A DNA stretch of 64,000 nucleotides from the NCBI GenBank assembly GCA_002989075.1, contig PSQN01000011.1, forward strand, positions 711,131 to 775,130, given 5' to 3'. Every line of letters begins with the position of its first letter. Position 1 is the first letter of the stretch. The stretch comes from Arthonia radiata. Its lineage: Eukaryota; Ascomycota; Arthoniomycetes; Arthoniales; Arthoniaceae. The notes beneath the pieces are model-generated. The model made no database searches. It had not been told where the DNA came from and saw nothing but the letters and a program-made list of their open reading frames with translations. The translations under genes and the position numbers were made by a program. Positions 2,448 through 35,159 of the stretch are shown here, piece after piece.

Positions 2448-2933
2448 CTACTCAGCCTGTGGACGCACACAAGCTCGAACGCGTCTGCTACTCGCCGAAT
2501 TTAGCCGACTTCCTATGTTTGACACGCGCCGCTCCAGGCGCCTCAACGCAGCGCGTATGCTTCCTCGCCCAAGCTCAGGTCCGGCGTCCAATGTCGGAGG
2601 TGGCTCCTGACCCGCCGGCACTTCCTGATACTCACGCTGAAAATTTCTGATGTTGACTGCATACCTGCGAAGGAGCTGTTGGTTGGACTCGTGCATCTGC
2701 GTGACGAGCATGTTCACAAGGCGCTGCCCTTCCACAGTTTGCAGATTCTGCCGGCCTTGCTCAATGTCTTCAACGCGGCTGCGGTTTCGCGCGATGTTGA
2801 ACAAAGCCCAGACGCGGGCGGTTGTCACATAAATGCCGAGGCCGAGTTCAAGTGCTGTGACTGCGAACGTGAAAGCGGAAGCGAACCGCTGGAACTCTTG
2901 CCAATTTATGTCCGTGCGGTTCATTGCCGTCAT
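2448..2933 (-). CDS. WY-module family protein, one module, 162 aa
   Basis: Unrecognised family; member of the cluster described at 25-35 kb but on the other side of the retrotransposon nest. The frame is open further upstream; the first ATG is at 2933. One module covers roughly residues 10-97: an N-terminal helix beginning INWQEFQRFASAF, the signature RVWALFNIARN (about residues 40-50), then GQRLVNMLVTQM and a closing helix RRYAVNIRNFQ. A proline-rich linker and an Arg-rich tail follow (AALRRLERRVSNIGSRLNS). The signature has two extra residues between the Trp and the aromatic relative to W-Y-x-I-A in other members. There is no signal peptide; the Ala/Leu-rich part of helix 1 is mildly hydrophobic but is not a convincing membrane segment. 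Function unknown. Confidence 0.6.
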   Translation of the reverse strand: MTAMNRTDINWQEFQRFASAFTFAVTALELGLGIYVTTARVWALFNIARNRSRVEDIEQGRQNLQTVEGQRLVNMLVTQMHESNQQLLRRYAVNIRNFQREYQEVPAGQEPPPTLDAGPELGRGSIRAALRRLERRVSNIGSRLNSASSRRVRACVRPQAE

Positions 2934-3634
2934 TGCGCCTGGCTTTGTCTTTTGTTTGTGTTCAAGACGCTTGATTGGGTTATCTGTAGGTCGCTGCTCA
3001 GATGGCGATGGCACGGACAATCTAAAACTGATAAGCCTTGAAAGTGGCAAGGTCTGTTGTGCTTAAAGGCTTTCGGTTCCTCTCCGCTGGGTCTTATGCT
3101 GCCGCGATGTATGCTTTTCGACAATCTGGTTATGCTCGAGGTGTCTCTCAATGCGGCACGAAAAAGTCGCAAGTAAATAAACACGATGGAAGTGGCAGTG
3201 GTCTTGAGAACACATCTTCGCTCGTCCAGAGTCAGATGCTTTCAGTACTCTGTCACGTCTATCCATGCTGTGAAGGTCAAAGAGGTAAGTTGAACGCCGC
3301 GACTGCAGCGCCAATTTGCACAACCTGCGAGAACCCTATCTACGGGGTGTTGTGCAACACGAGGCTGTCGAATGAGATCTTCCAGATAAGCCCACGGCTT
3401 TGCGCAATCGACGGCTGCAATCTGCTTACCGGGAACCTGGTTTCAGGACATGATAAATACCCCAAACAGCGCTTTCTGGCTTCGGGGAACGACTCCTAGG
3501 CCCGGTCGGCTCGGCACGCAAGATGACAGCAGGCAAAAATAGCAGATCGTGTTTGCACGTGTTGTTCCACCCATATCATCCGCTGCTGATGGACTGTCGC
3601 TAATACAAAGGATGTCGACTTGTCGAAGACCGCT
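2934..3634. other. Stretch without a supported gene
   Basis: Upstream of the WY-module gene at 2448-2933. A plus-strand frame at 3038-3499 is open but has no recognisable domain and runs antisense to possible upstream sequence of the neighbour. I do not call a gene. Confidence 0.35.
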
Positions 3635-4222
3635 TCACTTCTCCGGACCGTCAGCCGCTCTCACGCTCTCACCGCGAAGCCATCTGGTGACTCGATGACC
3701 CCTCGGCCTGGACCGCTGCGAACGTCTACCCTTGTTGACGCCCTTCAAAGCCCCTAAGATCCTCGTTAATCCAGAGGGTGATTCTGCGGGCTCCTGCGCT
3801 ACAAGCTGCGTTGGTTCAGTCGATTTCGTAGGCGCCGACGGCTGCTTCTCGAGCTCAAGCGGGAGCCGTTGTAGGCGAATATCTAGCCCTTCCGCAGGCT
3901 GTGCAGACACCCGTCGAGGACGTACACCGAGCCCCGAGAGCTGATGCTGAAAAGCAGTACTGGCCCAGACGTCGTTTTGGGAACGATGAGCGTCTCCTAA
4001 AAGGTACCACACCCAAAGCATGACCTTTAAGCCCTCCGGACGGGCTAGCAGCGAGAAGGCGCGCCTGAAATCTGCTTCGGTTGCTTAAGCTGTGCCGATT
4101 CTGTACCAGACTCTCACGTGCTATGGATCCAGCCACACCTCGTGGGGCGCTTTTGCCATTTCGACTGCACGATCGTAGAACTGCTGAAACTTGTCGAAGG
4201 GGAGCCGGCTGACGTCCGTCAT
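3635..4222 (-). pseudogene. Decayed WY-module family gene
   Basis: From an ATG at 4222 the minus strand reads a module: FDKFQQFYDRAVEMA, then EVWLDP, then HVRVWYRIGTA, then ATEADFRRAFSLL and LWVWYLLGDAHRSQN, followed by a Ser/Pro/Arg-rich tail to the stop at 3635 (ending around RSQRSRPRGHRVTRW). Two in-frame stops interrupt the module: TAG just before HVRVWY and TAA after GTA. Both are what CAG and CAA (Gln) would become by a C-to-T change in a CpA dinucleotide, the RIP signature. The rest of the frame is conserved, so the loss looks recent or the stops are few. The locus lies 391 bp outside the RIP-mutated Copia LTR. An intron bypassing the stops is possible but I see no good splice pair. 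Confidence 0.6.
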
Positions 4223-4613
4223 TGTGCGGGCTGCGCGATCAGGATTCTTTGCACGGCGTGTGAGGAGGCTTCGCGAGCTCGATGAGCTTCTTTCGACGAA
4301 ACCGCAAGGGCGCTATTTTCGGAGATCTGGTTGGAAACATCGGTTCAACAAAGGGCTTCACACATGTATCTTCACGTTTGCGGCGGCTTGCATCTAACTT
4401 ATTCCGACTCCAACATCTTGACACCTACTGTGACCGTTATTGTAGCTTTTCTATGTTAAATGACTTGAACGAAAAGAGAGGATACGGCTTACAGTAGTTG
4501 CAAAGTCCCTTCAGGCAGGGTCGCAACCTTGGCGACCGCGACAGATGGCTCATAACGTGCCGATATCTACCAATATCAGTCAAAGCGCAACGTCCATGAG
4601 CTGACCGGATTCT
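4223..4613. other. Spacer between the WY pseudogene and the Copia LTR
   Basis: Normal-composition DNA. A short minus-strand open frame (4239-4424) has no recognisable content. No gene supported. Confidence 0.4.
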
Positions 4614-4798
4614 TGATAAGGTATATGGCTTTTATCACATTCCGACTAACATGGTAGGAAGGTAGGTACAGGAGGATGAGACGGAAGATATGAGTGCGTC
4701 CATCACGTGATCCCAATATATGCCTATTCAGGCAATTCTCTACCAGGCATCCCGTGTCTTGGCATAGCCATCTGGACTGGGCGATCCTGCACACAACA
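4614..4798 (-). repeat. 3' LTR of the Copia element
   Basis: 185 bp, near identical to 24845-25029 apart from a handful of transitions. Directly inside it (4799 onward) the minus strand has a short purine run (GAGGGGG), in the place of the polypurine tract. Confidence 0.85.
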
Positions 4799-4989
4799 CA
4801 CCCCCTCAGGATCACCAATATAGGTGAATGACAAGCCAAATATTATCGTTTTGAGAAAAAGAAACGGCCTGCCGAAGGCGGTAAGTAACAAAAGAAACAG
4901 CGCACGAAGTGCGGCTAGGCGCGGAGCCCTAATTGTCGAATAAAGCCTGCTCATATTAGGAGTAGCAAAGGCTTAGTAAGACTATCTGC

Positions 4990-7900: not shown

Positions 7901-8894
7901 GGTGTCTTAATTTCGGTAGGAACAACGAATAGAAGGTTGTTAATAATAGTAAGTTTAGTGTATACTTTAAATTTAACTATAAGGCGGTTGTTCTAGTAAT
8001 TAAGATATATTCTGTATCCTTTCTTTAATTTATAAGCAAAAATAATGTTAATTGACCCCGATAGTACATAAAGAACGTTAAGTAGACGTAGTACGCTCTT
8101 ACTACCGTCGGCAAGCTTAATATTTAGGATTACCTTACTAAATTAGATAGTAAAAGTAGAACCGTCCGTAACTTTAATTTACCTTAGTTTTTTAAGCTTC
8201 TTAATAGCTATAAAGGCGTTAATATTTGTATAAATATAAATAGTAGCTTCAATATTATATATCTAGATACTAGAGTAGAAAGGTTCACTAGACCGTACAA
8301 ACAGTCTGCTAGACGTTATCGTCGACGGTATAGATATAGCGACGCTAGCTATATTAGAGAACTTGCTCTTATTTACCTTTTCCTTTCTTTTCTTAGTAAG
8401 GAGGTTAGAGTACTGTTTGTAGCATTCTAAATTTTTATATATTAAATTGGAGTATAAGTTATATCGGCTAGAATACCTATTAGAGTTCTTCTTATTTAAT
8501 CCGCTCTAAGCGGCTAAAGCAGCTAGTAGGTCGTTAGTAGCAGTAAAGTTATTATAAGACTTAGCTATAGATAGCTCTAATCTCCTACTCTTCGTTATAG
8601 GAATACCTTTATACTAGTATTTAGTATAGATTCGATTAATAATATTATAAATAATTAGAACTAGGTCTATAAAACAAAGGTCTCTTATTACCGTATTAAG
8701 TCTTGTTTTTAACCTTAGTTTCTATAGAAATAAGACACTGTTATAAAGTTTTAAGTATATTTAATTATTTATTCTTAAGGTATAAATCTCTTTTCTATAT
8801 TTTAGAAAGCGGTTAATATAGTTCTCTAAGCTCTTTAAGTTATTAAGGCTAATATTTAGAAGATAATTAATAAGCTTAAATATCTTAGAAAGAG
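4990..8894 (-). pseudogene. Copia pol and part of gag (broken)
   Basis: Read on the minus strand, parts lie in Copia order from right to left: gag-like sequence (about 8,300-8,890, with the stretch LENYINRFLKYRKEIYTLR), integrase (about 7,000-8,000), reverse transcriptase (about 5,500-6,500) and RNase H (about 5,200-5,400). Order integrase before reverse transcriptase is the Copia arrangement. Breaks are numerous (dozens); no coding capacity remains. Confidence 0.75.
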
Positions 8895-9366
8895 TGTTAC
8901 GGGCACCAGCCCTAGACGGCCTAGCGTACACCCAAGCATCAACCACCGCCAGTCATCTCAGCTCTACCAGCATTATTTCCGACTAAGCCTATAAACCCGC
9001 CGTAGGCATTATCAGACAAGATAGCTATAAGAGCCTACGTTCCTTATAAACCCGATATAAGCATTATTAAGATTAACGGACATAGAGGAACTTTCCTATG
9101 TATCTTAGACTATATAGCTAGACTAATGGCCGACCCTAGGATAAACTTTAATCTATTAACTTAATATTTAAATACAAGTTTCTTAACCCTATTTAGATAA
9201 CATACTTTACCTTCTAACTATCTCTATTAAGCCCCTCTTACCTTCTGTAATCTGTCTCGCCTCTCCTGTCTTTTAGTCTTTAGTACACGAGACACCTACT
9301 ACCAAGGTCGATAAGTATACAAGGTAAGTGAGCCTTAGCTCGGTTCTCCCAGCGACCGGCGTTACA
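8895..9366 (+). repeat. 5' LTR of the outer Gypsy element
   Basis: 472 bp, TG...CA ends, preceded by the target duplication AAGAG. Aligns over its whole length with 23590-24061; differences are nearly all transitions. Confidence 0.92.
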
Positions 9367-9408
9367 CTTTAATAGACTCGCTACGAAAGTAGAAAAAGCA
9401 GATTAATT

Positions 9409-12323: not shown

Positions 12324-12519
12324 TGTGATCTGGGTGTAGGGCAGAGAGCAGTTAGGTGGCAAAAAGGGCCCAGATAGGCCCTACTGGTGTTCAAGCTAAT
12401 TATTGAGGAGACCAGAAAGGGATGCGTCCACTGGAGGGAAGATATCCTCCAAGGATCGCAGCCTTCCCAAATAGGCAACATTCCGTCCCAATTCGCCATC
12501 GGGACGTCCATGCATCACA
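12324..12519 (-). repeat. 3' LTR of the inner Gypsy element
   Basis: 196 bp, three transitions different from 20139-20334. A purine-rich tract (AAAGGGGGAAGG on the minus strand, about 12522-12537) lies just inside it. Confidence 0.95.
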
Positions 12520-13128
12520 ACTACCTTCCCCCTTTAGGAGGATCGCCCTCGATCCGGGTGCAATCCGCTATCTCTATCGCACCTTCCATTCATCGTCTTA
12601 CGCAGGGCAACAACCTCGTTAAAAACCCGCTGGCTCATGTCTGCGTTCAGTCGGGAAAAGAGTGATGTTGCTCACTGTCATCCTGCGCGTCGTTTGGTGC
12701 TGGTTTTCTGCAGCACCGAGTTGTAGTGCTGAGCTTCACTTTTGATTTGAAGCTCCCGAGCCTGAGTTGTGAGCTCGGTGGTGAGGTTTTGTATCATTTT
12801 CACCTGATTTCGCGTTCTTTTGCATGCTCTCATGCACGCTTTTGCCGATCAATTGCCCCTGTAGGCAGTAGCAACCTGCGTGAATGGGCTTCTTTGCTCC
12901 CAAATCCGAACCTGTAGGCGGAAGCTTTGTTATCGGTACCTGACGATAGGCATAAAACAAGGCTCTTGCTCTTTCGAACTTCCTCTTTCTTTCTTCAACA
13001 TCATCATACTCTTCTGCTTGGCCTGCAAGCTTCTCTTCTCTGGTAGGCCTTCACTTCTCTTCTTGGGTGATGAGTTCGTAGCTAATCCGGTGTCAGATTG
13101 CCTCCAATTCGCCTTCACAATCTCCACT

Positions 13129-14223
13129 ATGTCGGGTTTCAACCCCGTCAACAAACCCGCTGCTGGAGCGAGCTCTCCTGAAGCGCCAACTCGCCGCTCA
13201 ACTCGCGGCATTGAGGACCCTGAAGCCGCTGTTGATCCTGAAGCTCTTCTTCGTGACGCCCGCAAGAAGAAAGCTCCCAAGGTTGCTTCACCAATTCCTG
13301 AATCATCTGCGGCTTCTCCTGTTCCACGCTCTCCCGAACTAGGTAGCGTGTCTCTGACTCCTGCGACTCCTCGTAAGTCTCCTATCTCTCATTGCTTTGT
13401 CCTAGTCTGACTGTTAGCATTCTAGCTCGTCGAAAGCGTCACGTCCGTAAAGACGACTCCGACGATGACGAGATCGTCCGTTCTCCCTATCACCGCGGCA
13501 CTGCTTATGAGCCCGAGTCGCCTGCGAAGTCTCGCCGGTCTGCCTCCTCGAATCCCGCTTTTCGCGCCGTGCCTGCGTCAATCCAGCCTCAGCCAGAGGC
13601 TTACGTCCCAGTGTGCTGCCGTTGCATGAAGGCCTTGTTTGGCGACATGGCTGCACGTGGTGGTCCTTCCGCGAACTCCGATTTCAAGCATCACGAGGAC
13701 TGGACCTGCGAGTGGCCCAAGGGGCAGTACGCCAAGTGTGCTCGCTGTGCTAGTGTTGGGAGGTCAGGAGACAAGTGTGAGATGGTAAGTCTGATACCCC
13801 CCCGTCTTGGGTACTAATTGACCCTATATTGATATGTGCTAGGTCCCCGCTCGGTAGAGACGTGCCTGCAACCTCCTCGTGCGCGCCAACTTCTTCTTGA
13901 CCTCTGGCGAGGACGTCTGGGATGACGAAGAGTCTTTCCGCGACGACTATCTTACTCTGCTTCGCGCCTTTTGCGTTCAGCTGCAGGCCTGGCAGCGCGG
14001 TCTGGGCACCAAGTCGGTCGAGCAGGCCGATACTGACGATTTCGAGCGCATCAAGGCGCTACGCCAGAGCTTCGATTCTGGTATGGGGTTGTACGGCCCT
14101 CAGCCGCCTGCGAATGAGGCTCCTCACGAGCTGGCTATGGCAGGTCTGGTTGATTGGATTCGGGACCGCGTTGACGGTGGTCGCGGCTGGGTCAAACAGT
14201 ATTATACCGCCGATCCGTACTAA
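13129..14223 (+). pseudogene. Antisense cysteine-rich accessory gene of the inner Gypsy element
   Basis: On the strand opposite to pol, between the chromodomain end and the 3' LTR. Starts at ATG 13129; two introns are well supported (13373-13425, and 13785-13842 with branch TACTAAT). The predicted protein has a Ser/Pro/Ala-rich disordered N terminus, a cysteine cluster (VCCRCMKALFG, then TCEW, CARC and KCE) that looks metal-binding, and an acidic helical C terminus ending WVKQYYTADPY. Function unknown. Introns show that it is expressed from its own plus-strand transcript rather than from the genomic RNA (inference). About one break. Confidence 0.65.
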
Positions 14224-14504
14224 CTTCGGTGCCAGTTCGGGTAGTCTTTTCGTGGTTTTCTGCCTTTTGTTTGGCTGGGGTTTGGTCTGTGTGAGTGGTT
14301 TTCCTTGGCTTATCGGAATTGTTCTGCATTTCTTCCTGTACAAGTCTCATTTCAGCTTTCTCATGGCTTGAGCTTCACAATCATGTATAAATAGTCTTGG
14401 GGTTTGATACTACACCAATTCTATGTTCTAAACTGTACTCGAGGTATTCCGCCTTCTATTCGGCGTCACATCGTAGGCTAATCGCGTAGGCTTGTAGCCC
14501 TTTC

Positions 14505-17500
14505 TTATCCGCGTTGCCTAGTTCGTCTCAGACGCTTGCCTCTCGGCTCAGCGTCTTCACGCTTCTCAAATTTCTTGAGGGCGTCAGAGTCTTCAAGATG
14601 TGCCCGCGGCTCCATCGTGTTATTTGCCTCCGACCACCCCTGCCACTTGGTCCAATACTGGTCTTTGTTCTTGACCTTAAAGCGGATCGCCTCAACGAGC
14701 CATTCTTCACCACCATCGACTTCGACCGGACCAGGCGGTTCCGTGACGGGCCGACGGCGATATGGCTCCAGTAAGGAAACGTGGAAGACAGAGTGGATGC
14801 GGTAGGAGTTTGGCAGTGCCAGCTGGTAAGCTTGTTTGCCTACTTTCTTAAGGATCCTGAATGGTCCTAAGCTTCGATCGTCGAGCTTCTTTATTGGCCT
14901 CTTTGTCTTAAGGTTCTTTGACGACAGCAGCACTAAGTAACCCACTGCATAGTGTTTTGGTGTGTGCTTGGTGTTGTACCATTCTGTCTGCAGACGCTGA
15001 GCTTTCTCTAGCTGCTGCTTAATTTCTTGTTAGCGGAGAAGGCGTTCTTCTATATGCTTAACTGCAATAGGATGTTCTGGCCTAGGCTGCCTCTCCCCTT
15101 GACGGGAGGTGTCCTCGCCGACAGGAAGGTCGTCCGGCTTGACCACGGTGTGGTGCCGATCCGGCGGCGGCGCGCCGTCTGGTACGTCTGCAACGCGACC
15201 GAACGCGCATTCAATCGGCGAAATTTTCGTCGATGAATGAACTTTTGAATTGTACGCAAAAGCAGCTTCTTCCAGATACTCATGCCAGTAATCTTGATCC
15301 AAAGAGATGTAGATACGCAGGTAGTTTTCAAGCTCCTGGTTTTGGCGCTCGGTTTGGCCATCAGTTTGAGGGTGAAAAGCTGTGCTCAACCTTCGTTTTA
15401 CGGCCAAATGCTGGCAGAAGGTGCTCCAATATGAGCTAGTGAACACAGATCCTCTGTCAGACAAGAGGCTACTCGGGAATCCCGACGTTTTCGCCAAGTG
15501 TTTGTAAAGCACTTCAGCCAGCTCAATAGCATCCATAGTTTCACTAACTAGAATATAGGTAACAAACTTAGAGAAGCGGTATACGACCACGAGGATTGAA
15601 TCAACAATGTCCCCGTTCTTTAAAAGAACAATCGGTAGTTTGACAACAAAGTCAAAGGATAGGTCCTCAAAGGGGCCAATCGGGACCGGCATCGCCGCCA
15701 TTTCGCCGTATGGCTTATGCCTCTTTACGGCTGTCCGTTGGCATATGTTACATTCAGCAACAAAGTTCTTGATATACGTTGCCATCTTTTCCCACGCATA
15801 TTTGCGTCTCAGGATTTCGAGGGTCTTCTCGACCTTAAAGTGGCCAGCAAGCTTATAATAATGATTTCTGCTTATGATTTAAAGCTTCAACGCAGGGCAT
15901 TCTAGTATCCAGATTTTGCCACCTTGGCGCAACAACCCGTGGCTGTCGACTGACCATTCTGCGTGCTTTGGAGACTCGGAGTTCGAGTCGGGCCCTGTCG
16001 GGGCATCTGAGTCGATTCGACTCGCACGGCGCTTTCTCGTGCCGGCTTGACGGCGATCCGTTGCCGTTTTGTCACTCTGCTGACCTTCAGTCCCAGCCAA
16101 TGATTTCAACTCCGATACTTTCTGCTTCACAAAGGCGTCCCTCTGCTGGGCTTCGAGGATAAGGGTCGCGAGACCCCGAGGAGTATCATTGTAAGCTGTT
16201 TCGAGAGCGGTAGCTGCAACTACCTCAACTCGTGATACGAGAGCTACCGGAAAAGGCTCTGCATCAGCAGGGGAAGACGGACGCGTTTCTCGCTCCTGGG
16301 CGTCCTGCATGAGGTCTGTATCTGACTCCGATCTGCCCCCGATTTGGGCCACAGTCGCGTCCGGGGTTTCAGGTCGGTGGCCAAACCGCTGACAGTGTTC
16401 AAACTGATTTTCAAGCAATGTGATTGAGGCAGCAATCACACCTTCTTCTGGGCTAGGGGGCTCTTCCCCAGCACCAGGCAAAGCAGCACCTCTCCTGAGC
16501 TTCTGCTGCAGGCTCGGCAACATCTCGTTGGCGTTGTCTTCCTTTGCTCCACGCAAATTCTCGTAATCTGGACGGCGCGACGGCGCGTCTGCTGGGTTCT
16601 TGCTACCCACACGGTATAGTATTTCAAAGTCAAATGCTGACAGGTCTTCTGCCCAGCGCGCCTGTCGGCGAGACAATACTTTCGTTGTCATGAAATACCG
16701 CAGATTATTGTGGTCTGTCACGACCTTTACTAAGTGCTGTGCACCAATGAGGTAATGGCGCCAGTGCTTGAAGCTGGCCTATATTGCTATGAGCTCTTTG
16801 TCATAGGTATTATATCTTAGCTCAGCGTCTACGAATTTCTTCGAAAAGAACGCTACCGGATGCAGGTGTGTGTCCGCCTTGTTATCGGTGCCAGTCCGGG
16901 CGGTGTCCGCCACATCTAGTGTAGGCAAGCCTAAGTTGATGTTCAACGGCAATGGCAATCGGCCATCTCCCCTCAGCTGAAGTAAGATGCCTGCCATTGC
17001 AAAGTCTGATGCGTCAGTCATCAAAACGATCGACAGTGCCGGGTCAAAGTGCGTCAGCACTGGTGCATTCATGAAGGCTTGCTTCAGCGCTTCAAAAGCT
17101 TCTTGTTGGGCTTTGCCCCAGACGAACTTGACGTCTTTCGTCAGTGCGTTCATTGGCGCTACGATGCGGCTAAATCCGTAGATAAATCGCCGGTAGAAGT
17201 TTGCGAATCCCAGGAAGGACAGGATCTGCTTTGCGGTGGTGGGGACTGGCCATTCGGCTATAGTCTGCACCCTTTTCGGGTCCATTTCGACACCATCGAC
17301 TCCTACGGTGAACCCTAGGAAAGAAACCTTGGTGGTGTGAAATTGACACTTGGACAGCTTTGCAAATAAACCTCATTCACAGAGCCTTCGCAGGACTTCT
17401 TTGACATGGCCTTCATGGCTTTCCTCGTCTTCAGAGAAAATCAAGATATCGTCCATATAAACGATACACACGGTATCAACAAGATTGCCCATGGCTTTGT

Positions 17501-18719
17501 GGATATATGCCTGGAACGTAGCAGGGGCGTTTGCTAGTCCAAAAGGCATCACCAGGTATTCATAGTGCCCGTATCGGGTACGAAACGCCGTCTTCCACTC
17601 ATCCCCTTTGCGGATGCGGATACGGTGATAGGCATCGCGAAGATCAAGCTTCGTAAACACCTTCGAGCCTTGCAGGCGATCAAGAATCTCAGAGACTAGC
17701 GGCAATGCGTAGCGATTCTTTACAGTCACATTGTTCAAACCGCGGTAGTCAACACACAGTCTCAACGATCCGTCTGCCTTGGGCACGAACAGGACTGGGG
17801 CACCCGCCGGACTGGTGGAGGGTTGTATCTACCCTTTCTTGATCATAGCATCCAGGTACTCCCGGAGCGTCTTCAGCTCATCCTGCGATGCAGGGTAGAT
17901 TGGCTTATGCGGAGGTTCCGTGCCATCCTTGAGCTCGATCTCATGAGTGTGCTCACCAAGCGGCGCAAGCTCACTCGACAGTTCTTCAGAAAAGACATCT
18001 TTATATTCAGCGTACTGAGGAGGAAGCTCATCTCGCTTCTCTACTTTCTCAGGCTCGCCATCCGGGGTCCGGTCTGGCGGCGAACTGACGTCTGATAGGA
18101 CCGCTATTTGATACTTATAACGTCCATCCGCTCCCATCTGCGGGATCGCGGAGTAGCACTGTTCGCCTCTTTGCAAACATGCTAAAATTACGTCTTCATT
18201 GACGATCTCAACAGATTCAGCTCCTGCCACCCGTTCTTCGGGCGCAGGGAGGTTTCCCCAAGCGATTGTTCTCATCGCCCAGCTGATCCGGGGCTCAACT
18301 TGCTCAAGCCATGGGTATCCCAAGACGAGGCTGTATCCTACAAAGTTGGCCGAATATAGGCGGAGTTGGCAATGCCGTTTCTCCCCATACACGTCTCTCA
18401 CGGTTACATTCACGTTATACGCGCCGTAGAGCTGCAGCTTATTTTCATCAAGGAACTTGGCATGCGGGAGCTTTACTCCATGCGATTTTTGCCATCCTCT
18501 TTCAAGCACAATACGATGATCAATGAGGTTGATCTCTGCACCGGAATCTACCAGCGCGAGGACCTCTTGCGGCGACCTGCCCAGCTGTGCCGAGACTTCA
18601 ATTCGTCCTCGCCGTTGATCGACAGCCCCAAGCTTCAGGGACGCGAGGCTTACCCTCGGGGCCTGTCGTTTCCCCGCCCAACTGGCGTCGAATTGACACC
18701 GGTTTGGGGCGTAGTGCAT
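14505..18719 (-). pseudogene. pol of the inner Gypsy element
   Basis: Right to left: aspartic protease with ALVDSGAEINLID (about 18,540), reverse transcriptase with [11 protein letters not shown] (about 17,440) and [16 protein letters not shown], RNase H (about 16,680-17,100), integrase with a zinc-binding start and the core SDRGSVFTS and FHPQTDGQTER (15,030-15,785). A C-terminal chromodomain (YWTKWQGWSEANNTMEP) lies at about 14,600-14,680. Order and chromodomain identify a chromovirus. A few breaks. Confidence 0.9.
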
Positions 18720-19999: not shown

Positions 20000-20138
20000 C
20001 AATTAATTTTGATATTATTCATTTCAACGTGTGTGTGGAGTCTCGGCTATACTCGATTATGCCGGGTTGACCCCTGAGCGACGTCGATAAGGTGCCTGAC
20101 TGCCGGCCGCCCCCCTCGTGGGTTTAGAATAATTAGGA

Positions 20139-20334
20139 TGTGATCTGGGTGTAGGGCAGGGAGCAGTCAGGTAGCAAAAAGGGCCCAGATAGGCCCTACT
20201 GGTGTTCAAGCTAATTATTGAGGAGACCAGAAAGGGATGCGTCCACTGGAGGGAAGATATCCTCCAAGGATCGCAGCCTTCCCAAATAGGCAACATTCCG
20301 TCCCAATTCGCCATCGGGACGTCCATGCATCACA
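20139..20334 (-). repeat. 5' LTR of the inner Gypsy element
   Basis: 196 bp, TG...CA ends, flanked outside by ATAAC. I could not recognise a tRNA-complementary primer site next to it. Confidence 0.95.
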
Positions 20335-22860
20335 ATAACCTAATTTGTATGCGGAAAGGCGAAGAGTAGAAAACAGCCTTCTGCACCAGATACGGACTTT
20401 TCGAGTATTGCGTTATACCCTTTAGGCTAATAAACGCACTAGCATCATTTTAGAAACTAATTAACAATACACTTAGCGATTACTTAGATATATTTATAAC
20501 TGCTTATCTAAACGATATCCTAATATACAGCTGTATACTAGAAGAACATAAGAAACATATTAAGAAGGTATTAGAAAGATTAGCGCGTACCGATTTACGA
20601 ATCAATATTAAGAAAACCCAGTTTTACCAACAATCCGTCGAATTTCTTAGATTTATAATTACCGAGTATAGTCTCTAAATAGAAGATTCGAAGATCTAAT
20701 CTGTTCTAACCTAATCTATACTAAAGAATATAAAATAACTACAACAGTTTCTTAGTTTTGTTAATTACTACAGACGATAGATATTTAACTTTAGCCGAAT
20801 TATAGCACCGCTGTCTTAATAAACGAAACAATCGATAGGATTCTCCTAAACGCAAAAAAAACAATCAGCATTTAAAAAGCTTAAGGAAGCTTTTAAGATT
20901 GGGCCTGTACTAGCGATATTTAACCCTAACCTACCGATTATTATAGAAACAGACGCGTTAGACTATGCAATTGAAGTATATATAAGTTAAAACAATAAGG
21001 AAGGGAAGCTTAGACCAGTAGCTTTCTACTCAAGAAAAATGTTACCTATAGAACAGAACTATAATATTTACGATAAAGAGCTTTTAGCTATTATAGCAGC
21101 ATTCGAAATATAGCGAGCTTACCTAGAAGGAGCGAACTATACGATTATAGTATATACGGACTATAAAAACCTAACTTACTTTACAACAACAAAGAAGCTT
21201 AATTATAGACAAGTTAGATAGTTAGAAACTATAGCTTTATACGACTTTATTATTATCTACAAGAAAGGTTCCGAGAACGACAGAGCTGACGCTCTAAGTC
21301 GACGACCAGATTACCTTAATAACAAGAAACACGTTAAGCACGCAATATTCCGAGAACAAAATAATAAGATTAGATACAATCAATTGGCTATAACAACCGA
21401 GTTTGTTATTAAACCAGACAACCGAATTACAGACATTCTAAACGACCCTGAGACCTATTAGGAAAACGAGAAACGAAACCTAGAATTAACTAAGAACAAC
21501 AGAGGCTATTACGAATTTTAAGGCAAAATCTACGTCCCGAGGAATCTAATCCGAAACATTATTAGTAACTTCTACGATAACCTAACTAAAGGACACAAAG
21601 GTATTGAGAATACTATAGAGAAGATTACAAGAACCTATTACATCCCGAGAATCTAACACTACGTCGAGAATTATATTCAAGAATACGATATATACGCAAG
21701 AACTAAATACCCAAGGCATTTACTATACAATAAACTACAACCACTAAAAATACCCGAGAGACTATAGCATACAGTATTACTAGACTTTATAACTAAACTC
21801 CCAATATCCGAGGATCTACTTACAGAAGTAGCCTACGACGCTATCTTCGTTATATACGATAAACTAACAAAGTACGTATACTTCGTGCCTTACAGGGAAG
21901 CCAGCAACTCAGAACAACTAGCGTATACCTTCCTACAGATTATCTTAGCTAACTATAGTCAACCGCAAAAAATCGTCTTAGACAGAGATCAGAAATTCGT
22001 CTTACGATTCTAAACATCTCTAATGCAACAACTAAAGACTAAACAGAAAATATCGACATCGTTTTACCCGCAAACAGACAGACAAACAGAACGAACGAAT
22101 TAAACGCTAGAGCAGTATCTCTGGGCGTATATCAACTATTAGTAGAACGACTAAGTATAGTTACTACTAGTAGCGCAAGCAGCGTACAACGACACAAAAA
22201 ACGATATAACTAAGACAACCCTATTCTACGCCTTATATAGCTACTACCCTCTTTAGAGAAGACAACTGTACAATACAACCAAAAACGAGGCAGCTACACG
22301 AATAGCTATAAGCATAAAAACCCTGCATCAGCAGTTAAAGTCTAACAGCGAGTTTATTAACGAACAAACAAGACAATAGTATAATAAATTAAGAACTACC
22401 CTAAATACAAGCATAAAAGAGGAGGAAAGAGCTTACTTGCTTATAAGAAACTTAAAAACTATTAGACTAAGCAAGAAACTCGACTATACTAAGACAGAAC
22501 CGTTTAAAATTGTACAGCAATTAGAACCTATAACATTTAAACTAGAACTCTTAAAGATAATAAGAATATATTCTGTATTCTATATAGCGCTGTTAAAACT
22601 AGCCTACTCCTAAGAAGCAGAACGACCCAACCCAGAAATCCTTTCTAATAACTAAGAACCCGAGTATAAGGTTAAAACGATTCGCGCCCACAGACAATAT
22701 CAAGGTAAACGACAGTATCTTATAAAATAGAGAGGATATCCTAAACATAAAAATTAATAGGAACCAGAACAAAACCTAACTAACTACAAAGACACTATTC
22801 AACGATATTAGAACCAGAATATTAATCGGTTATAGCAGTACTAATACCCTAATCTACTAT
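20335..22860 (+). pseudogene. Rest of reverse transcriptase, RNase H, integrase and chromodomain, outer Gypsy element (broken)
   Basis: After the second ATAAC the reverse transcriptase continues, followed by RNase H (about 20,930-21,310), the integrase zinc-binding region and core (about 21,560-22,270) and a C-terminal chromodomain (about 22,670-22,830). The chromodomain makes this a chromovirus. Many breaks. Confidence 0.8.
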
Positions 22861-23572: not shown

Positions 23573-23589
23573 TAGAAGAGGAGGAATTG
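23573..23589 (+). other. Polypurine tract of the outer Gypsy element
   Basis: AGAAGAGGAGGAAT-type purine run directly before the 3' LTR, the expected plus-strand priming site. Confidence 0.7.
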
Positions 23590-24061
23590 TGTTACGGGCA
23601 CCAGCCCTAGACGGCCTAGCGTATACCTAAGTATTAACTACCGCCAGTTATCTCAGCTCTACTAGCATTATTTCCGACTAAGCCTATAAACCCGCCGTAG
23701 GCATTATCGAACAAGACGGCTATAAGAGCTTATATTCCTTACAAACCCGATATAAGCATTGTCGAGATTAACGGACATAGAGGGACTTCCCTATGTACCT
23801 TAGACTATATAGCTAGACTAATGGCCGATCCTAGGATAGACTTTAGTCTATTAACTTAACATCTAAATATAAGTTTCTTAACTCTATTTAAGTAACGTGC
23901 TTTACCTTCTAACTATCTTCGTTAAGCTCCTCTCTTCTTCTATAATCTGTCTCGCCTCTCCTGCCTTTTAGTCTCTAGCACACAAGACACCCACCACCAA
24001 GGTCGACAAGCACACAAGGCAAGTAAGCCTTAGCTCGGTCCTTCCAGCGACCGGCGTTACA
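23590..24061 (+). repeat. 3' LTR of the outer Gypsy element
   Basis: 472-bp partner of 8895-9366, followed directly by the target duplication AAGAG. Confidence 0.92.
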
Positions 24062-24844: not shown

Positions 24845-25029
24845 TAATAAGGTATATAGCTTTTATTATATTCCGACTAACATGGTAGGAAGGTAGGTAC
24901 AGGAGGATGAGACGGAAGATATGAGTGCGTCCATCACGTGATCCCAATATATGCCTATTCAGGCAATTCTCTACCAGGCATCCCGTGTCTTGGCATGGCC
25001 ATCTGGACTGGGCGATCCTGCACACAACA
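24845..25029 (-). repeat. 5' LTR of the Copia element
   Basis: 185-bp copy of 4614-4798; differences are transitions only, as RIP would give. Its outer edge at 25029 marks the right border of the nest. Confidence 0.85.
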
Positions 25030-25271
25030 CTCAGTCTACGTGTTTGTTCTGAAAGACCTTTAACAGCTTCATCAACCGGCTGACCGCTATTGTACACGTT
25101 TCGGATCTGGAAGTTTAGCAATGCGCGCTTTCGGCAATATACTGGGTCGGGTCATCTTCATGACCCGGTTGACCCATCATCTAACCACTACTATTGTGGC
25201 ATTGAGCTGACAAACGTGATTACTCCGCATCCGAAAGCTCTGCAATATCATTACATAGCAATCCAAAGTAG
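25030..25271. other. Spacer between the Copia 5' LTR and the first right-hand WY-module gene
   Basis: Any upstream exon or the promoter of the plus-strand WY gene should lie here; I could not define one. Confidence 0.3.
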
Positions 25272-26010
25272 GTTGCCCCAATAACTTTCAACTACGACTG
25301 TCGCCGGAGTTCTGACCTGTCAGCTGCCGCCAACGAAGGCTTCCACGCATTCTCCAACGCTTTTGCCGCCGCGGCGAGGAACGTGGGTGCTGACGAGACC
25401 GTTTGGATCACTGAGCACCGAATGCGACCTTGGTACATCGTGGCCACAGATCGACTGGCTTATGGACGGCCAAGTTCAGCGCTTGCCCCCCAAGAGGCGT
25501 ACGTATCAGCAGGTCCCTGATGATAAATCTTGTCGGAGCATCTACTAACTCGTTTTCAGCATAGACGACCTTCAGAGCGCCCAAGGGCAATCAATCGCTA
25601 TTCGTTTGTTAACCGAACTTCACAATATTGGCTGGCAAGCGCACAATGAGTTCCTTCGCATTTTCCTCGTGTCATACTTACCCACGGGGAGGCGTCATCA
25701 GCTGGAGCAGGAACTCAGGCCGCGGTTTGCCTCGCCTAGGCAACGTCCGCTCTTGCGGACTCTGCAAGCTGCTCCAAGGTGGTTTAGAACACGCGGAAGA
25801 CCAATCGGACTCTCAACCTGGGGGATGTCGAATAGCACCACGACGACAAATCAGCCGATCGTGACGTATCACTCCAACAGGAGAGCGCCTGGAAGACCTC
25901 GGGGAAATAGAGCACCAACGCCGCCGCCCTCGTTAACAGAAGCATCGCCAGGAAGCGCCGAAAGTCATGAGACAAGGGAGAGGTCGCGCTCGCCGCCGCG
26001 GGGGAGATGA
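25272..26010 (+). CDS. WY-module family protein, one module, plus strand, 5' end unresolved
   Basis: The frame opens after a stop at 25271. It encodes NEGFHAFSNAFAAAARNVG, then VWITEHRMRPWYIVATDRLA, an intron at 25499-25559 (GTACGT donor, branch CTACTAAC, acceptor TTTTCAG), then SAQGQSIAIRLLTEL and NEFLRIFLVSYL. The tail is Pro/Thr/Arg-rich and ends RERSRSPPRGR. The stretch VWITEHRMRPWYIVATDR closely matches YWTEDQKIEHWFNIATDR of the gene at 34449-35159, so homology is clear. No ATG precedes the module in frame after the stop, so a first exon must lie upstream, perhaps lost near the transposon border 243 bp away. It converges on the gene at 26217-27083. Function unknown. Confidence 0.6.
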
Positions 26011-26216: not shown

Positions 26217-27083
26217 TTAGCTTCCACTGCCATGCTCCCGACCATTCTGCCTGCGTCGAAGCCAACGAATGAAACGCGGGGATTGCGGTGGTGGCGACCT
26301 CTCGCGGTGTCTTTCTCGCTCTTCCTCCGCTGATCCCTCCTCCCTACTCCGCTCAACAGCAGTTTGTTCCGATCTCTGGCTCGAACCACCGCTCGGATCG
26401 GTTGCTTGCGCGGCCACTGTCGGTCTGACTTGCAGTGTCACCTGCTGCTCCGAACGTACCAGTCGGCCTCGCGGCGTATTGTTGCGAATGAAGGTACGGA
26501 CACTCTCACTATTAATATCATAGCCGTGTACTTCGAGCTCCGCGGCAAGATGCGCGGCAATTGCTCTCCCTGTTGCATCTTGTAGATGAGCGCGCAATAT
26601 AGTGACATGGGTTTGATTCTCAAGATGGCCCCCGGCGAGGTTGTACCACGCCTCCAAGCGTCGTGGCTGTGCCCAGATAGCCGTGGACGCTCCAACTCGT
26701 CTCACACATCGCAGGTAGAGCTGGCTGAAAGCCCGCTGGTCTCGAATATATGGCAATGGAGGCGCAATTCCCGCTGTATATCGGAAACCGACAGGGCTGT
26801 GTCGTGACCGGAAGCCACTGATCCTTTCAGCTTCGACATTCGAACTGAGGTTCCGCAGTATGATTTCAAGGCGTACGATTATTCGTTCCCCGTCCAAGTA
26901 CTGCAGCTGGCTTCGGGCTTGCTGGCTGTCTTGCTCGATGGCGTCGTCGATGGCGATCTGGTACCACGGCCACATGTGGAGATCATTCACCCAGTCGCCG
27001 ATGCTGACAGCAGCTTGCGTCGCCGCATGTCCGAAGTTCATGGAGAAATACTGGTAACGAAGCTGCCCTGTTCTTCGATGCAT
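26217..27083 (-). CDS. WY-module family protein, two modules, 288 aa
   Basis: Unrecognised family. ATG at 27083 (a second ATG 14 codons on is possible). Module 1 (about residues 15-95) has MWPWYQIAIDD at 37-47 and GERIIVRLEIIL. Module 2 (about 115-205) has RRLEAWYNLAGGH at 141-153, GRAIAAHLAAELEVHG and SESVRTFIRNN. The C terminus is charged and Arg/Ser/Pro-rich (RHRERSPPPQSPRFIRWLRRRQ), similar in flavour to the tails of neighbouring family members. Intronless, no signal peptide or membrane segment. It converges with the plus-strand member ending at 26010; only 206 bp separate their stops. Function unknown. Confidence 0.65.
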   Translation of the reverse strand: MHRRTGQLRYQYFSMNFGHAATQAAVSIGDWVNDLHMWPWYQIAIDDAIEQDSQQARSQLQYLDGERIIVRLEIILRNLSSNVEAERISGFRSRHSPVGFRYTAGIAPPLPYIRDQRAFSQLYLRCVRRVGASTAIWAQPRRLEAWYNLAGGHLENQTHVTILRAHLQDATGRAIAAHLAAELEVHGYDINSESVRTFIRNNTPRGRLVRSEQQVTLQVRPTVAAQATDPSGGSSQRSEQTAVERSREEGSAEEERERHRERSPPPQSPRFIRWLRRRQNGREHGSGS

Positions 27084-28414
27084 TCTTTCGGATTTGCTGG
27101 GCTCCTTCCGCGCTACAGGGAACTGGGAGACTTGGACAGTCTATGGATAGTGGTGTCTCAAGTGCGCTATTCGCTATTTGCGCCGCATAGACAAGGTTTT
27201 TTATTGGGCTGAAAGGAAACGGAGGCAATCTAGAGAACATCATGTCATCAGTGGAGCTTTGCGCAATGCGATCATCCATTATACGTATCTCACAAATCAC
27301 GTAACAGGATATTCAAGCGCTTCAAATGTGATGCATCCGGTTAATCTTTGGGTAACTAACGTAGTCGGCTCTCCACGTAGAACGTCGCTATTTGGCTGGA
27401 AAAGAAACATCGAGCTGCAGCATTAAGTCCCGACATTCTATGCGACATATACTTCCCGCTATGATAGTATAGTAGCGCTTTCAATCAACAAAGGGTCCAG
27501 AAAAGAGAGTAGTTCCATAGCGATAAGATCCAGGTGGCCTCAGCCGTCTACAAATACTAGCCGTTTGAAGTCTCGGGACAGAATACACGAGATTATCAAA
27601 CGACAGTAATTGTGCTTTTGGGCAAGCCAAAGCCGAGGATGAGGGTGACTACGTTTACAAGCAGGGTTGGTCTTGGCGGTCGTTGCCAGGTCAACCAACG
27701 CACTAATCATACGCTTAAACTATGCAAGCACACACATCAGCCAGGCACCTTCCGTCTTTTGCTCATGCAATGCAATTGGGAATGCTACGATTGTTCGTCA
27801 GGCAATAGTAATCTCTCTACCGCTTCACTGAATCCTTCTGGTCTTGTCGTCCTCTGGACCGTTACACATCACCTCTAGCGACAAATTTTGTGTGCCTCCT
27901 TCATAAGTCCCAAAGCACATGATTTCATCGCGGTAGCCACCTTCTGCGTGGTGTCACTTCCAGAAAATTAGCCTTGAAATCTTGTATGGTCCGAGCATAC
28001 TGCTCCATGCTGGCACGATGCAGCTGGACTGGTAGCTGGCGAATGATTTCCAAGCTTCCTTTCCCCCGCAAGCGAAAGGCAGGCTTTCAGCAACCTGAAA
28101 TCATAATAAAGTGCTCTCGAGCTTGTTGCGCCACAGTCCACGAGAAGAGAGATATGAGCTGCTAGTGCAGACGGGTGCGCTACGCCAAGGCGCTCATATT
28201 ACTCGACAAAAGCTATTCATTAACATCTTGGAAAGCATTTCTATGATCACGTCCGGCTGGCTTGTTTGGCAAGAAACCCAGACTGGCCGACGAACGAAGT
28301 CCAGAATTCTTCCAAGCAAAAATGCCAGCTTGCGTTGTACGATGTGTGAGCAACAGACATGACCCTTACCTCTTGTACTGAATCGAGCGTCGATAGCCCC
28401 TCAAGCCTCGTGAT
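27084..28414. other. Stretch without a supported gene
   Basis: Probable promoter side of the gene ending at 26217 and 3' side of the gene at 28415-29554. The open frames are short and unrecognised. I looked for further W-Y signatures and found none convincing. Confidence 0.35.
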
Positions 28415-29554
28415 TTAGCGTTCATGGAGACGGCGGTCCAGGAATGCTTGAACCGTCGTAGCATGCTCGAGCAGGCCGACGACACGCAATTCTTGAGGGA
28501 GACGTAGTACAACGCGAACATTGTTCTTTGCCCGTATGTCTGCTGCGGCACGCTGGATATCCTTCGGCCTGGCTTGCCGTTGGCTAACACGAAACCAGTA
28601 GGCGACTTTTTCTGGAGTCTGTCGGTTCTGCGCTCGGCCTGCTCGCTCCATCGCAGAATGGTATGCTGTTTGAAACTGTTCGTGTAGCTCTTCAAGTGTT
28701 ACGTCCTGTCTTCCGTGGGCCAGTTGGGTCTGTTCACGCACTCTAGTCCGCGTTCCTGCCGAAGGCCCTAAGCCTCGAGAACGCGTGGGGGGTGTATCTC
28801 GCACCCTGATGGCAACGGTATCTTGTATTCCGTGATCGTCTTCTTGATCAGCCGCAAGGCGTTGGATGTCCTGGTCAGGTGTCTGGACTGGGACAGCCTC
28901 GGGAGGTTGGTTCACTCGAACTCCCAACGCGATTCTGACAAATGCCATAACACACTGTGCCCCATGATAGAAGGATGCGCGGTCCAGTTGAAGGGCTAGC
29001 TGATGAGCAAAGCCGCTCCCAGCAACGCGATTATTACCGCGAAGATCTTGATGCGCAATATTCGTGTCCAGGTGTGGCATGAGTCGGCCGCAAGCGACAT
29101 AGTACCAAGCACATACACGCTCGTGATGCATCCACACGCCGACATCCAGCTCAATCCCAAGATTCACTCCCGTCATCCCTATCGACTCGGCATAGCATGC
29201 GCAGAACCTATCAAAGTTCCGGTGAACTTCCAGTGATGGATACCGACCCGGTGGGACGAGAGTGTCCTCCGGTGGTTGGTTTTGGTGCTGGAACAGATGT
29301 ATACGATCAGCGTAGTCGGGAGGTCCGTCATGTTCGAGGTATATCATAAGAAATCTGATTATGCTTTCGCCTTCTTGGAATCCTAAGTGTGAGCTTGCTA
29401 TGACAGGATCTGAGGGCTCGCTGATGCCACGAGCAATATTGTACCAGGGCTCAATGCGCTCTACGCGCACCCAGCAATCAACATCTGCCATTGCTTGCAG
29501 AGCTGCAAGTGTGAAAAGGGTTACAAACCGCGGCCACGCGTCATTATGCTCCAT
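28415..29554 (-). CDS. WY-module family protein, three modules, 379 aa
   Basis: Largest member of the family. The frame is open upstream to 29602 but the first ATG is at 29554 (MEHNDAWPRFV). Signatures: RIEPWYNIARG (33-43), RVCAWYYVACG (146-156) and KVAYWFRVSQR (316-326). Each is preceded by an aromatic helix (AWPRFVTLFTLAALQA, NFDRFCACYAESIGM, LHEQFQTAYHSAMERA). Each is also followed by a Leu/Ile helix and a closing segment (YADRIHLFQ, AQCVMAFVRIAL, ATTVQAFLDRRL). Between modules 2 and 3 lies an acidic then Arg/Thr-rich linker (VRDTPPTRSRGLG). Intronless. No catalytic motif, signal peptide or membrane segment seen. The module arrangement implies internal duplication. Function unknown. Confidence 0.68.
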   Translation of the reverse strand: MEHNDAWPRFVTLFTLAALQAMADVDCWVRVERIEPWYNIARGISEPSDPVIASSHLGFQEGESIIRFLMIYLEHDGPPDYADRIHLFQHQNQPPEDTLVPPGRYPSLEVHRNFDRFCACYAESIGMTGVNLGIELDVGVWMHHERVCAWYYVACGRLMPHLDTNIAHQDLRGNNRVAGSGFAHQLALQLDRASFYHGAQCVMAFVRIALGVRVNQPPEAVPVQTPDQDIQRLAADQEDDHGIQDTVAIRVRDTPPTRSRGLGPSAGTRTRVREQTQLAHGRQDVTLEELHEQFQTAYHSAMERAGRAQNRQTPEKVAYWFRVSQRQARPKDIQRAAADIRAKNNVRVVLRLPQELRVVGLLEHATTVQAFLDRRLHER

Positions 29555-32811: not shown

Positions 32812-33762
32812 TCATCCCACCCGTGGTGATCGCTCCCTCTCCCAGCGCGTATCGCTAGTGTTCTCAGGGTCCCGATGACTCCTAAGTGGCCTTTGAGGCC
32901 TGCCATCTCTACCTGAGAGCTGACGATACGTCCTTCCGGGAATGAGATTGGCCGAAGGTGCATTCTCGCGCACGAAGATCTCGACTGCTTGCGCGGCGCG
33001 GGGCATACTAGCGATGCGCAGTTGCTCAGGTAACTGCTCGAGGATCAACATTCCCGGCACTGACCGCAGATCCTTCCATGCTCGGTGGTCCTGATTAGCT
33101 CGGTCGTTCAACTGCTTTGCATTTTGGTACCATGAGCGAATGCGCGCGTCCGTGAGATGGTTTCGTTCTACGTGGGCCGCTCTCATGGCCGCCATAAAAA
33201 CATCTTCGAAATTGAACAGTGTGAGATTGGCGTCCGCCTGACCGCGATGATGCACTGTGGATGGGCTCTGACTGTTCGAGCACGTCGTATCAGAGCTTTG
33301 CGTACTTGTTGCACTGTGGTTAGATGGAGCTGCGCGATGCTGTGCTTCTATCGGCGCTGGGCGGTGCACGACTTCACGCACAGGTGAGAGAAGCCGGGCT
33401 ATATTTTCAGACATGCGTCGGATCGGCTGAGAATGTAGTCGTCCAAGCAGATCACATTGTCGTATCTCTCGCACCAATTTCGCATGACGCATGAAGTCGT
33501 GGATATTGTCCGCATACTCTCCCAAGGTCGCCGAATCGCTCAATATGGCCACAAGATGTTCAATGGCCACTCCTCCGTTGTTGTCCTCCAGCATGTTGCG
33601 CGCAAAGAGTGTGGCGGCTTGGCTATAGCGGCCTCTCGCAATTTGATACCAATTTGTCACGCTTGCAGTGTCTTGCCAGGCGATGTTCGCATCAGGTGTC
33701 AAGCACCAATGATATGCTGCAGCGAACGTCCGCCAATTATCGGTGGATTGCCGACGCCCCAT
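32812..33762 (-). CDS. WY-module family protein, two modules, 316 aa
   Basis: ATG at 33762, stop TGA at 32812-32814, intronless. Module 1 (about residues 9-95): NWRTFAAAYHWCL, SVTNWYQIARGRYSQAA (34-50), AIEHLVAILS, GEYADNIHDFMRH. Module 2 (about 183-268): NFEDVFMAAMRAAHVE, RIRSWYQNAKQLN, MLILEQLPEQL, AAQAVEIFVREN. A Ser/Thr/His-rich linker (about 135-175) separates them, and the tail is basic, ending WERERSPRVG. GEYADNIHDF matches DYADRIHLF in the three-module gene at 28415, good evidence for common descent. Its 3' end lies 150 bp from the convergent end of the membrane-protein gene. Function unknown. Confidence 0.68.
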   Translation of the reverse strand: MGRRQSTDNWRTFAAAYHWCLTPDANIAWQDTASVTNWYQIARGRYSQAATLFARNMLEDNNGGVAIEHLVAILSDSATLGEYADNIHDFMRHAKLVREIRQCDLLGRLHSQPIRRMSENIARLLSPVREVVHRPAPIEAQHRAAPSNHSATSTQSSDTTCSNSQSPSTVHHRGQADANLTLFNFEDVFMAAMRAAHVERNHLTDARIRSWYQNAKQLNDRANQDHRAWKDLRSVPGMLILEQLPEQLRIASMPRAAQAVEIFVRENAPSANLIPGRTYRQLSGRDGRPQRPLRSHRDPENTSDTRWERERSPRVG

Positions 33763-34448
33763 GATGGTTTAGCCGACACGCTCTCGAGGCGAAGCGAGGC
33801 TGACAGATAAGCAGACTGGTTTCGTTAGGTGGAGGCTTGTTGCTGGGCAATGTGTAGAAGACTAAGCAACAAGCCCGCCGGTAGAAGGGGATCGAGATAG
33901 CACACAATAACCATCTATCAACATAGCCATTGCCGGGGCCCGGTGCCGGCACGAAACGACTAAGAAAGAAAGCCTATTCGGCAGGGGAGTTTGCCGTGGC
34001 CGAGATGACAAAATGTGCCCATTGAAACGTATGCGTTGAAGTAGCAACAGCCGATCCGCCTTGGACGTGTCATGGATAAGACTATTTTAGGGCGTCAGGA
34101 TACATTTGACGAGGACCTGTCTTGGCCGCTGTTACAAGTTAGTCACTCAAAGCGGATTGACATACCCTCATACACGTGTTGAGTGAGCAAGCACGTTGGA
34201 GTCATGTTCCACATGCATCGAAGACTATTGGCCAAGCAAAAGGCTCTCTGTATTTCCTGAACAAGTTGGTACGTCATACGTTCCGACACATGAGTTCTTA
34301 ATGTTTTGACTAACGGTCTTAGATGCTGATGAGGTCGTTGAGACAGCAATTGTATCGTTGTGACCACTATGCATGAAAGACTGCGACATCAGCATTAAGG
34401 TAGGGACCACACGAGAGACTTGGTGACTGAAGTGCGGACTCGGCCCTT
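33763..34448. other. Intergenic region between two WY-module genes
   Basis: Should contain the promoter of the gene at 32812-33762 and the 3' region of the gene at 34449-35159, which point the same way. No open frame with recognisable content. Confidence 0.35.
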
Positions 34449-35159
34449 CTAGACCTGCTCTCGATCGTTGTCTCTGCGTGCTCTCGTTCGCGATCTTGTT
34501 AATATTGGCGATCTTGCGCGCCGTCGGTCACTTTCTCTGGGCGTGGTATTAAAGTATTGGCGCATGCCGTGCTGTCCCGCGACACCTCTCTGTAGTGGAG
34601 CACTTGATCCTTGACTTTCCTCTCTCGGCTGCACAGAGACTAGTCCATTGTCGGGCGCTCCAAGCTGCGAAACGGTGGAGTTGTCTGCCCCCTTCTTGTG
34701 CCGAGCATTGGTAGAATTCTGGGATGGGGCAGACCATTGTCGACCTCGTTGCAACACCTGCTCGACTGATCGTATCATGGCTTGTAGGGGCGTTGGTGCA
34801 CTAGGGCCCGATGCTGGCGTTGAGATTGAATTGGAGTGAGCAAGCGGCTCTGCCAAGGTTCTCATGGCGGCGTGGACAAACTCGGAGCTTTCGCGCATGT
34901 TCCATCCCCGCAATTGGGTCGCAAGTTGACTAATGATTTCTCGTCCTCGATCGTTGGCCAAGGTAAGCCGTCCAGCGTTTCGGTCTGCCTGGTTAGCTCT
35001 GTCTGTAGCGATGTTGAACCAGTGCTCGATCTTTTGATCCTCTGTCCAATAGCGAACATCCGCTCCTTCTAGGTGTACCGACATCCCGAACAACGCAGCG
35101 AAATTGTCTCGAGAGACGTCTCGTGCTGGGACTAAAGCATCTTGATAATCAGATCCCAT
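34449..35159 (-). CDS. WY-module family protein, one module, 236 aa
   Basis: ATG at 35159; the open frame extends only one codon further upstream. The module spans about residues 16-105: RDNFAALFGMSVHLEGADV, YWTEDQKIEHWFNIATDRAN (37-56), GREIISQLATQLRGW, SSEFVHAAMRTL. The second half is a low-complexity Ser/Pro/Gln region and then an Arg-rich tail (RRRARSPILTRSRTRARR) that could act as a nuclear localisation or RNA-binding segment (inference). Intronless. Last member of the cluster on this side. Function unknown. Confidence 0.65.
   Translation of the reverse strand: MGSDYQDALVPARDVSRDNFAALFGMSVHLEGADVRYWTEDQKIEHWFNIATDRANQADRNAGRLTLANDRGREIISQLATQLRGWNMRESSEFVHAAMRTLAEPLAHSNSISTPASGPSAPTPLQAMIRSVEQVLQRGRQWSAPSQNSTNARHKKGADNSTVSQLGAPDNGLVSVQPREESQGSSAPLQRGVAGQHGMRQYFNTTPRESDRRRARSPILTRSRTRARRDNDREQV

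Follow-up and report, generated by a model that had tools for sequence, protein, structure and literature searches.

A diverged fungal protein family of tandem modules, predicted to be helical, that nearly excludes lysine

A module gene cluster split by a transposon island

The window analysed here is a 64 kb stretch of contig C7, in a genome of 33.5 Mb on 16 contigs. It contains six genes of a single protein family that look intact, although one shows no start codon, together with one broken copy and one remnant of the family (Table 1). Fifteen full modules were identified in total, ten inside the window and five in two genes on other contigs. An earlier note on this DNA had described seven clustered loci encoding eleven copies of a ~85-residue module, one to three per protein and on varying strands. 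The repeated module, ~90 residues long by our alignment, and the copy number of one to three are confirmed, and all eleven core signatures were found at the positions claimed when sequence and translation were reread. The eleven copies stand as placed, but a twelfth, decayed partial copy, missing from that list, sits immediately downstream of g5 on the minus strand; the seven window loci are clustered, but two further genes lie on contigs C4 and C1; and the strand varies only in that g3 is on the plus strand, all other window loci being on the minus. The locus called decayed, g2, is indeed broken by two stops inside its module.

Table 1. Members of the module family and the mobile elements between them (positions in the window unless a contig is given; K, lysine)
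Feature	Position	Strand	Description
g1	2448–2933	−	Intact ORF, 161 aa; one module (2628–2921); K = 0; profile E 1.2e-26
g2	3635–4222	−	Broken copy, two in-frame stops inside module; 8 K in 193 residues, counted piecewise
Transposon island	4616–25030		Splits cluster; 184-base direct repeats at ends; AT-rich RIP-like DNA
Ty3-type retrotransposon	12324–20341	−	Inside island; 203-base end repeats at 12324 and 20139, 97.5% identity
g3	25272–26010	+	Two exons; single module interrupted by intron 25499–25559; RSRSPP tail; K = 0
g4	26217–27083	−	Intact ORF, 288 aa; two modules (26799–27068, 26475–26741); RERSPP tail; K = 0
Remnant	27961–28080 (approx.)	−	Decayed C-terminal module part; ORF 27928–28086, E 1.5e-5
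g5	28415–29554	−	Intact ORF, 379 aa; three modules (29279–29554, 28922–29230, 28424–28699)
g6	32812–33762	−	Intact ORF, 316 aa; two modules (33478–33747, 32956–33225); RERSPR tail; 3 K
g7	34449–35159	−	Intact ORF, 236 aa; one module (34851–35117); arginine-rich tail; 3 K
C4 paralog	C4:990040–991317		426 aa; three modules; from genome search
C1 paralog	C1:1627727–1628434		236 aa; two modules; from genome search

Five of the genes (g1, g4, g5, g6 and g7) are uninterrupted ORFs, each with an ATG shortly ahead of its first module. The intron of g3 is canonical and 61 bases long (GTACGT...CTAAC...CAG). Reading back from the module of this gene to the preceding stop, one finds no in-frame ATG. Whole-genome searches with seven members converge on the C7 cluster and the C4 and C1 genes, the only other places reached in the genome being four with E values of merely 0.10 to 0.83. 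The C4 paralog is surrounded by HSP70, glutamate synthase and phosphoesterase ORFs, and the C1 paralog by an amino-acid permease and a SAM-PH protein. These dispersed paralogs are absent from the earlier note, as are the module classes by position and the lysine depletion.

The 184-base repeats at the ends of the island (4616–4799 and 24847–25030) are 98% identical, lie 20 kb apart and perhaps mark the two ends of an older, outer element. The Ty3-type element within it appears to have a five-base target duplication, likely ATAAC. RIP marks are found in the island DNA at 4–12 and 20–24 kb and are absent from the module genes of the window. A 473-base direct repeat (8894–9366 and 23589–24061, 89% identical) also lies within RIP-marked DNA. 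An oomycete origin of the genome was considered and rejected: at least 24 HET-domain matches, RIP-like islands and the 61-base intron point instead to a filamentous ascomycete, of which we take such features to be marks.

Common descent of the modules

Leave-one-gene-out profiles scored all 15 full modules at 37–68 bits. The profile signal stands well clear of shuffled sequence: for each of the 15 modules, none of 1000 shuffles matched the real score, the best shuffle per module reaching 7 to 15 bits (overall maximum 15.3). In a final scan, a profile of all 15 modules, which the known copies match by construction, was run against 1299 window ORFs of at least 30 aa in six frames; beyond these, it picked up the remnant at E 1.5e-5 and, at E 0.004, part of g2 (4124–4312), with no further match below E 0.7. 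Directly compared, g5 and the C4 paralog match at E 1.5e-24 across two modules. The modules descend from one common ancestor.

The shared pattern reads F-x3-[FY]-x2-A, a W, R-[VI]-x2-W-[YF]-x-I-A, A-x3-L, G-x2-[IV][IV]-x2-L-x3-L and A-x2-[VI]-x2-F. F8 and W33 are conserved in 14 of the 15 modules, and A37, L53, L65 and L69 in 13; for most modules, identity to a reference lies between 15 and 27%. In a tree of moderate support (bootstrap 83–91, no starred branch), the C-terminal modules of g5, C4, g6 and C1 cluster together, and g5b pairs with C4b. A comparison of this last-module class with ten other modules by hhalign, which served as a positive control, gave a probability of 98.4% over 84 columns. 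Since modules group by position across genes, several of the genes probably descend from a multi-module ancestor.

Predicted fold and candidate relatives

Structure prediction gave a helical fold, in line with the earlier expectation. Modelled alone by AlphaFold2 from nine window rows, g6a has six helices, with a pLDDT of 95.4 and a pTM of 0.86; the g5a+b tandem, modelled from two rows at lower confidence (pLDDT 78, linker under 50), repeats the helix order of g6a twice. Three modules from two genes are thus predicted with one helix order. Fold searches returned no named domain and no match above the level classed by the tool as common among helical bundles: scores for the globin-like fold fall within this common range, and the death fold accounts for six of the 50 rows listed, all of them weak (E 4.1 to 7.2). 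The module structure is confidently predicted and is without a clear solved match.

Sequence searches gave the same picture. Pfam yielded no family at E 0.001 or better for seven window ORFs or ORF pieces or for the 15 modules, C4 and C1 being scanned as modules only, which agrees with the earlier note, whose author knew of no named family with this signature. Searches of a set of 5.8 billion proteins, of uncertain fungal content, found no relative. This is a fungal protein family with no relative found outside this genome; its description as undescribed is suggested by the sets searched and cannot be proven.

PDB sequences gave no match at E 0.001 either, and the best of them, homeodomains at E 0.016 and later 0.14, raise the question of whether the module is a diverged DNA-binding homeodomain with the WY core as its recognition helix. 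The WY helix does resemble WFQN over a short stretch, and g6b reads RSWYQNAK. We consider this identity highly improbable, as the match weakens when members are added (from E 0.016 to 0.14), an hhalign comparison with the five homeodomain pieces of this genome reaches a probability of 6.3% over 18 columns, the position that we take as equivalent to Asn51 of homeodomains is I in 10 of the 15 modules and N solely in g6b, and the module model has six helices. The Pfam homeodomain, PF00046, scored 12.3 bits against a cut-off of 22.9, in g6 only, and the five homeodomain matches of the genome are at other loci.

Oomycete WY-domain (RXLR) effectors consist of tandem helical modules with a conserved W and Y, and share the 'WY' name that the earlier note gave to this module. 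They were rejected as relatives because Pfam, which presumably contains their models, gave no match at E 0.001 or better. Unlike in these effectors, W and Y are here adjacent within one predicted helix, and no clear secretion signal was seen in the family. The latter rests on a weak test, of hydropathy only, in which the g6 row began at an internal Met: the most hydrophobic nine residues in a row close to the start have a mean of 1.2 to 2.3 and fall on module helix 1, and no N-terminus looks like a clear signal.

Constraint on the protein

Across 368 codon pairs, g5 and the C4 paralog are identical at 0.49, 0.54 and 0.30 of codon positions 1, 2 and 3, and of the 109 residues that the two proteins share, M and W aside, 74 are encoded by different codons. 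In this one pair, silent sites are near saturation and the protein is retained. Seven members and g3 exon 1 have codon-usage scores that are positive and low (0.002 to 0.11, against 0.09 to 0.42 for the eight training genes, which were scored on themselves); g3 exon 2 scores negative, and in g4 and C1 one antisense frame outscores the true frame among the six. Because of these low scores, the case for coding rests on conservation and not on codon bias.

Low codon-usage scores and the adjoining Ty3-type element would also fit ORFs that are chance or transposon remnants and not genes. This is extremely improbable, given that third positions are near random in a pair whose protein is conserved (g5/C4), that the dispersed copies lie near recognisable genes, that the loss of lysine is confined to the coding frame and that the Gag ORF of the element gives no match. 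The related candidate, a gene derived from Ty3 Gag, was rejected on this last comparison, in which hhalign returned a probability of 0.1 over 11 columns. The intact-looking loci of the window and the C4 and C1 paralogs are probably genuine genes on which selection acts at the level of the protein, in part against lysine.

Near-absence of lysine in the coding frame

Of the 2266 residues of the eight members, 10 are lysine (0.44% K) and 278 arginine, compared with 505 lysines in 10286 residues (4.9% K, 7.0% R) in 16 control ORFs of the same genome, which were hand-picked from long ORFs and in some cases cut at locus ends. A 17th, lysine-poor ORF (window ~49506–51644) was left out of the controls; with it, they would contain 4.6% K. 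Lysine stands at 0.09 of its control level in the family; no other residue is strongly depleted, S coming next at 0.62, and R and Q are raised 1.7-fold. The three lysines of g5 all fall within its third module.

A lysine desert must be depleted beyond what base composition explains, and the AAR codons bear on this directly. AAA and AAG occur 10, 90 and 57 times in frames 0, +1 and +2 of the family (Fisher P 3e-16), as against 505, 359 and 270 times in the 16 controls, and the base composition of five family genes would predict 3.4% K. Because these codons are low only in the coding frame, the depletion is not due to base composition: it is the coding frame itself that excludes lysine. In three pairs of members, the sites that differ contain 3, 2 and 0 lysines, against 37, 30 and 31 expected from BLOSUM62, a comparison in which the pairs share members, two include loosely aligned tails and the background frequencies are nominal values. 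In a ranking by lysine content of 53 ORFs of at least 200 aa from 144 kb, with antisense ORFs counted too, the bottom six were C4, g4, g5, g6, g7 and the ORF at ~49506–51644; the g1 ORF, with an upstream extension, came ninth, and C1 and g3 were missing because they were cut or short.

One published definition of a lysine desert asks for a run without lysine that spans 150 aa or more, or half of the sequence or more (PMC10665810). Six of the eight members have such a stretch: g1 (161 of 161 residues), g3 (225 of 225), g4 (288 of 288), g5 (315 of 379), C4 (426 of 426) and C1 (127 of 236). In the other two, g6 and g7, the longest stretches are 120 of 316 and 111 of 236.

The broken copy differs from the rest, with 8 lysines in 193 residues versus 10 in 2266 in the eight other members (P 2.8e-5), which is suggestive of relaxed selection on lysine in g2; since g2 is a single broken copy, this is not proven. 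The remnant has 1 lysine in the 44 residues counted.

Possible roles of a lysine-poor module array

Family-wide lysine exclusion is the stronger clue to function. Orphan families rarely offer any clue to the forces that shaped them, and here the clue is strong, as the divergent modules are nearly all lysine-free and the broken copy is not. Ubiquitin usually attaches at lysine. The proteins, made up of one to three tandem modules of six predicted helices, arginine-rich linkers and tails and nearly no lysine, would offer ubiquitin no acceptor site, which may be why lysine is excluded. With less certainty, they may act as adaptors that keep diverse clients near a ubiquitin ligase, and their R/S tails hint that this could take place in the nucleus; the lysine-free state would prevent the adaptors from being tagged along with their clients, as published for San1, Slx5 and RAD23A, and copy gain, break-up and divergence would follow changing clients.

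Such an arrangement has precedents in two papers. Long lysine-free stretches are described there as frequent in components of the ubiquitin-proteasome system, which so escape tagging, and as present in some toxins and viral proteins (PMC10169902, PMC10665810); in two yeasts, ubiquitin-proteasome components make up 7 of 14 and 17 of 35 of the proteins whose deserts exceed 200 residues (PMC10169902). The same papers report long lysine-less stretches, conserved or functional, in San1, Slx5, RAD23A, UBQLN1 and BAG6 (PMC10169902, PMC10665810), to which the present family is similar. The deserts of San1 and Slx5 are described as chiefly disordered (PMC10665810), unlike the near-absence of lysine here, which extends through modules predicted as folded.

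Taken with the arginine-rich tails and the lack of a clear secretion signal in a weak test, this literature makes an intracellular adaptor array beside ubiquitin ligases the simplest reading. That the lysine-poor proteins of this highly diverged fungal family are intracellular adaptors, avoiding ubiquitin tagging near ubiquitin ligases, is nevertheless a tentative proposal, somewhat more doubtful than probable, and the narrower statement that they avoid tagging perhaps because they work beside such ligases is also rather doubtful. Unlike known lysine-desert proteins of the pathway, the family has no RING, UBL or other ubiquitin-pathway domain recognisable by Pfam in the seven window ORFs or pieces or the 15 modules, and with no known pathway domain in any member we can only infer an adaptor role. 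Further points weigh against it: g6 and g7, two of the eight members, fall short of the published desert thresholds; the remnant has just 1 lysine in 44 residues and g2 is a single broken copy; and the codon-usage scores are low, with another frame ranking above the true one in g4 and C1 and a negative value in g3 exon 2. The arginine enrichment could reflect RNA binding or condensates instead.

This last point leads to an alternative in which lysine is avoided for the sake of other properties, either arginine-driven RNA binding or condensate formation by a nuclear protein with RS tails, or freedom from acetylation or SUMO conjugation. Five tails contain 14–23% R and 0–2 lysines each, with RSP in four of the five, and the arginines of the UBQLN1 desert are reported to matter for speckles (PMC10169902). 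RSP also appears, however, in 13–27% of 2000 shuffles of the four tails that bear it, so the motif is weak evidence, and lysine is equally rare in the modules (7 of 1394 residues) and in the five tails (2 of 440). We regard this explanation as rather unlikely.

High divergence, broken copies and transposon-rich, RIP-marked surroundings, all seen here, are typical of effector or poison genes. The family could accordingly be imagined as a delivered effector or poison that acts in another cell, be it a host, a competing hypha or a sister spore, and whose avoidance of lysine guards against the ubiquitin system of that cell; lysine-poor protein toxins are named in both papers, with ubiquitin evasion proposed for several (PMC10169902, PMC10665810). 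We judge such a role unlikely: no clear secretion signal was seen at the N-termini by the weak hydropathy test, and the C4 and C1 members stand among ordinary genes on other contigs.

To return to the adaptor proposal, the avoidance of lysine across modules predicted as folded is what sets this family apart. On the structural models, the module might be a new all-helical domain of unsolved fold, set in a tandem, diversifying and near-lysine-free client-binding array, representing either a class of fungal ubiquitin-ligase adaptors or a self-against-other poison family hidden from ubiquitin, with exclusion in folded domains and disordered linkers alike; taken as a whole, this description is improbable, if conceivable.

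Other ORFs in the window

Two further loci lie beyond the cluster. At 44573–47202, about 9 kb from it, adjacent ORFs contain ankyrin repeats in one and NPHP3_N and DUF7791 (below its cut-off) in the other, and their domain content looks like that of a fungal NLR-type gene. The ORF at ~49506–51644, on the minus strand, has 3 lysines in 712 residues, an N-terminal ubiquitin-like region (Dsc3_N, 17.8 bits against a cut-off of 25.4) and, by eye, a hydrophobic stretch; it is possibly a membrane ubiquitin-ligase component and itself a lysine desert.
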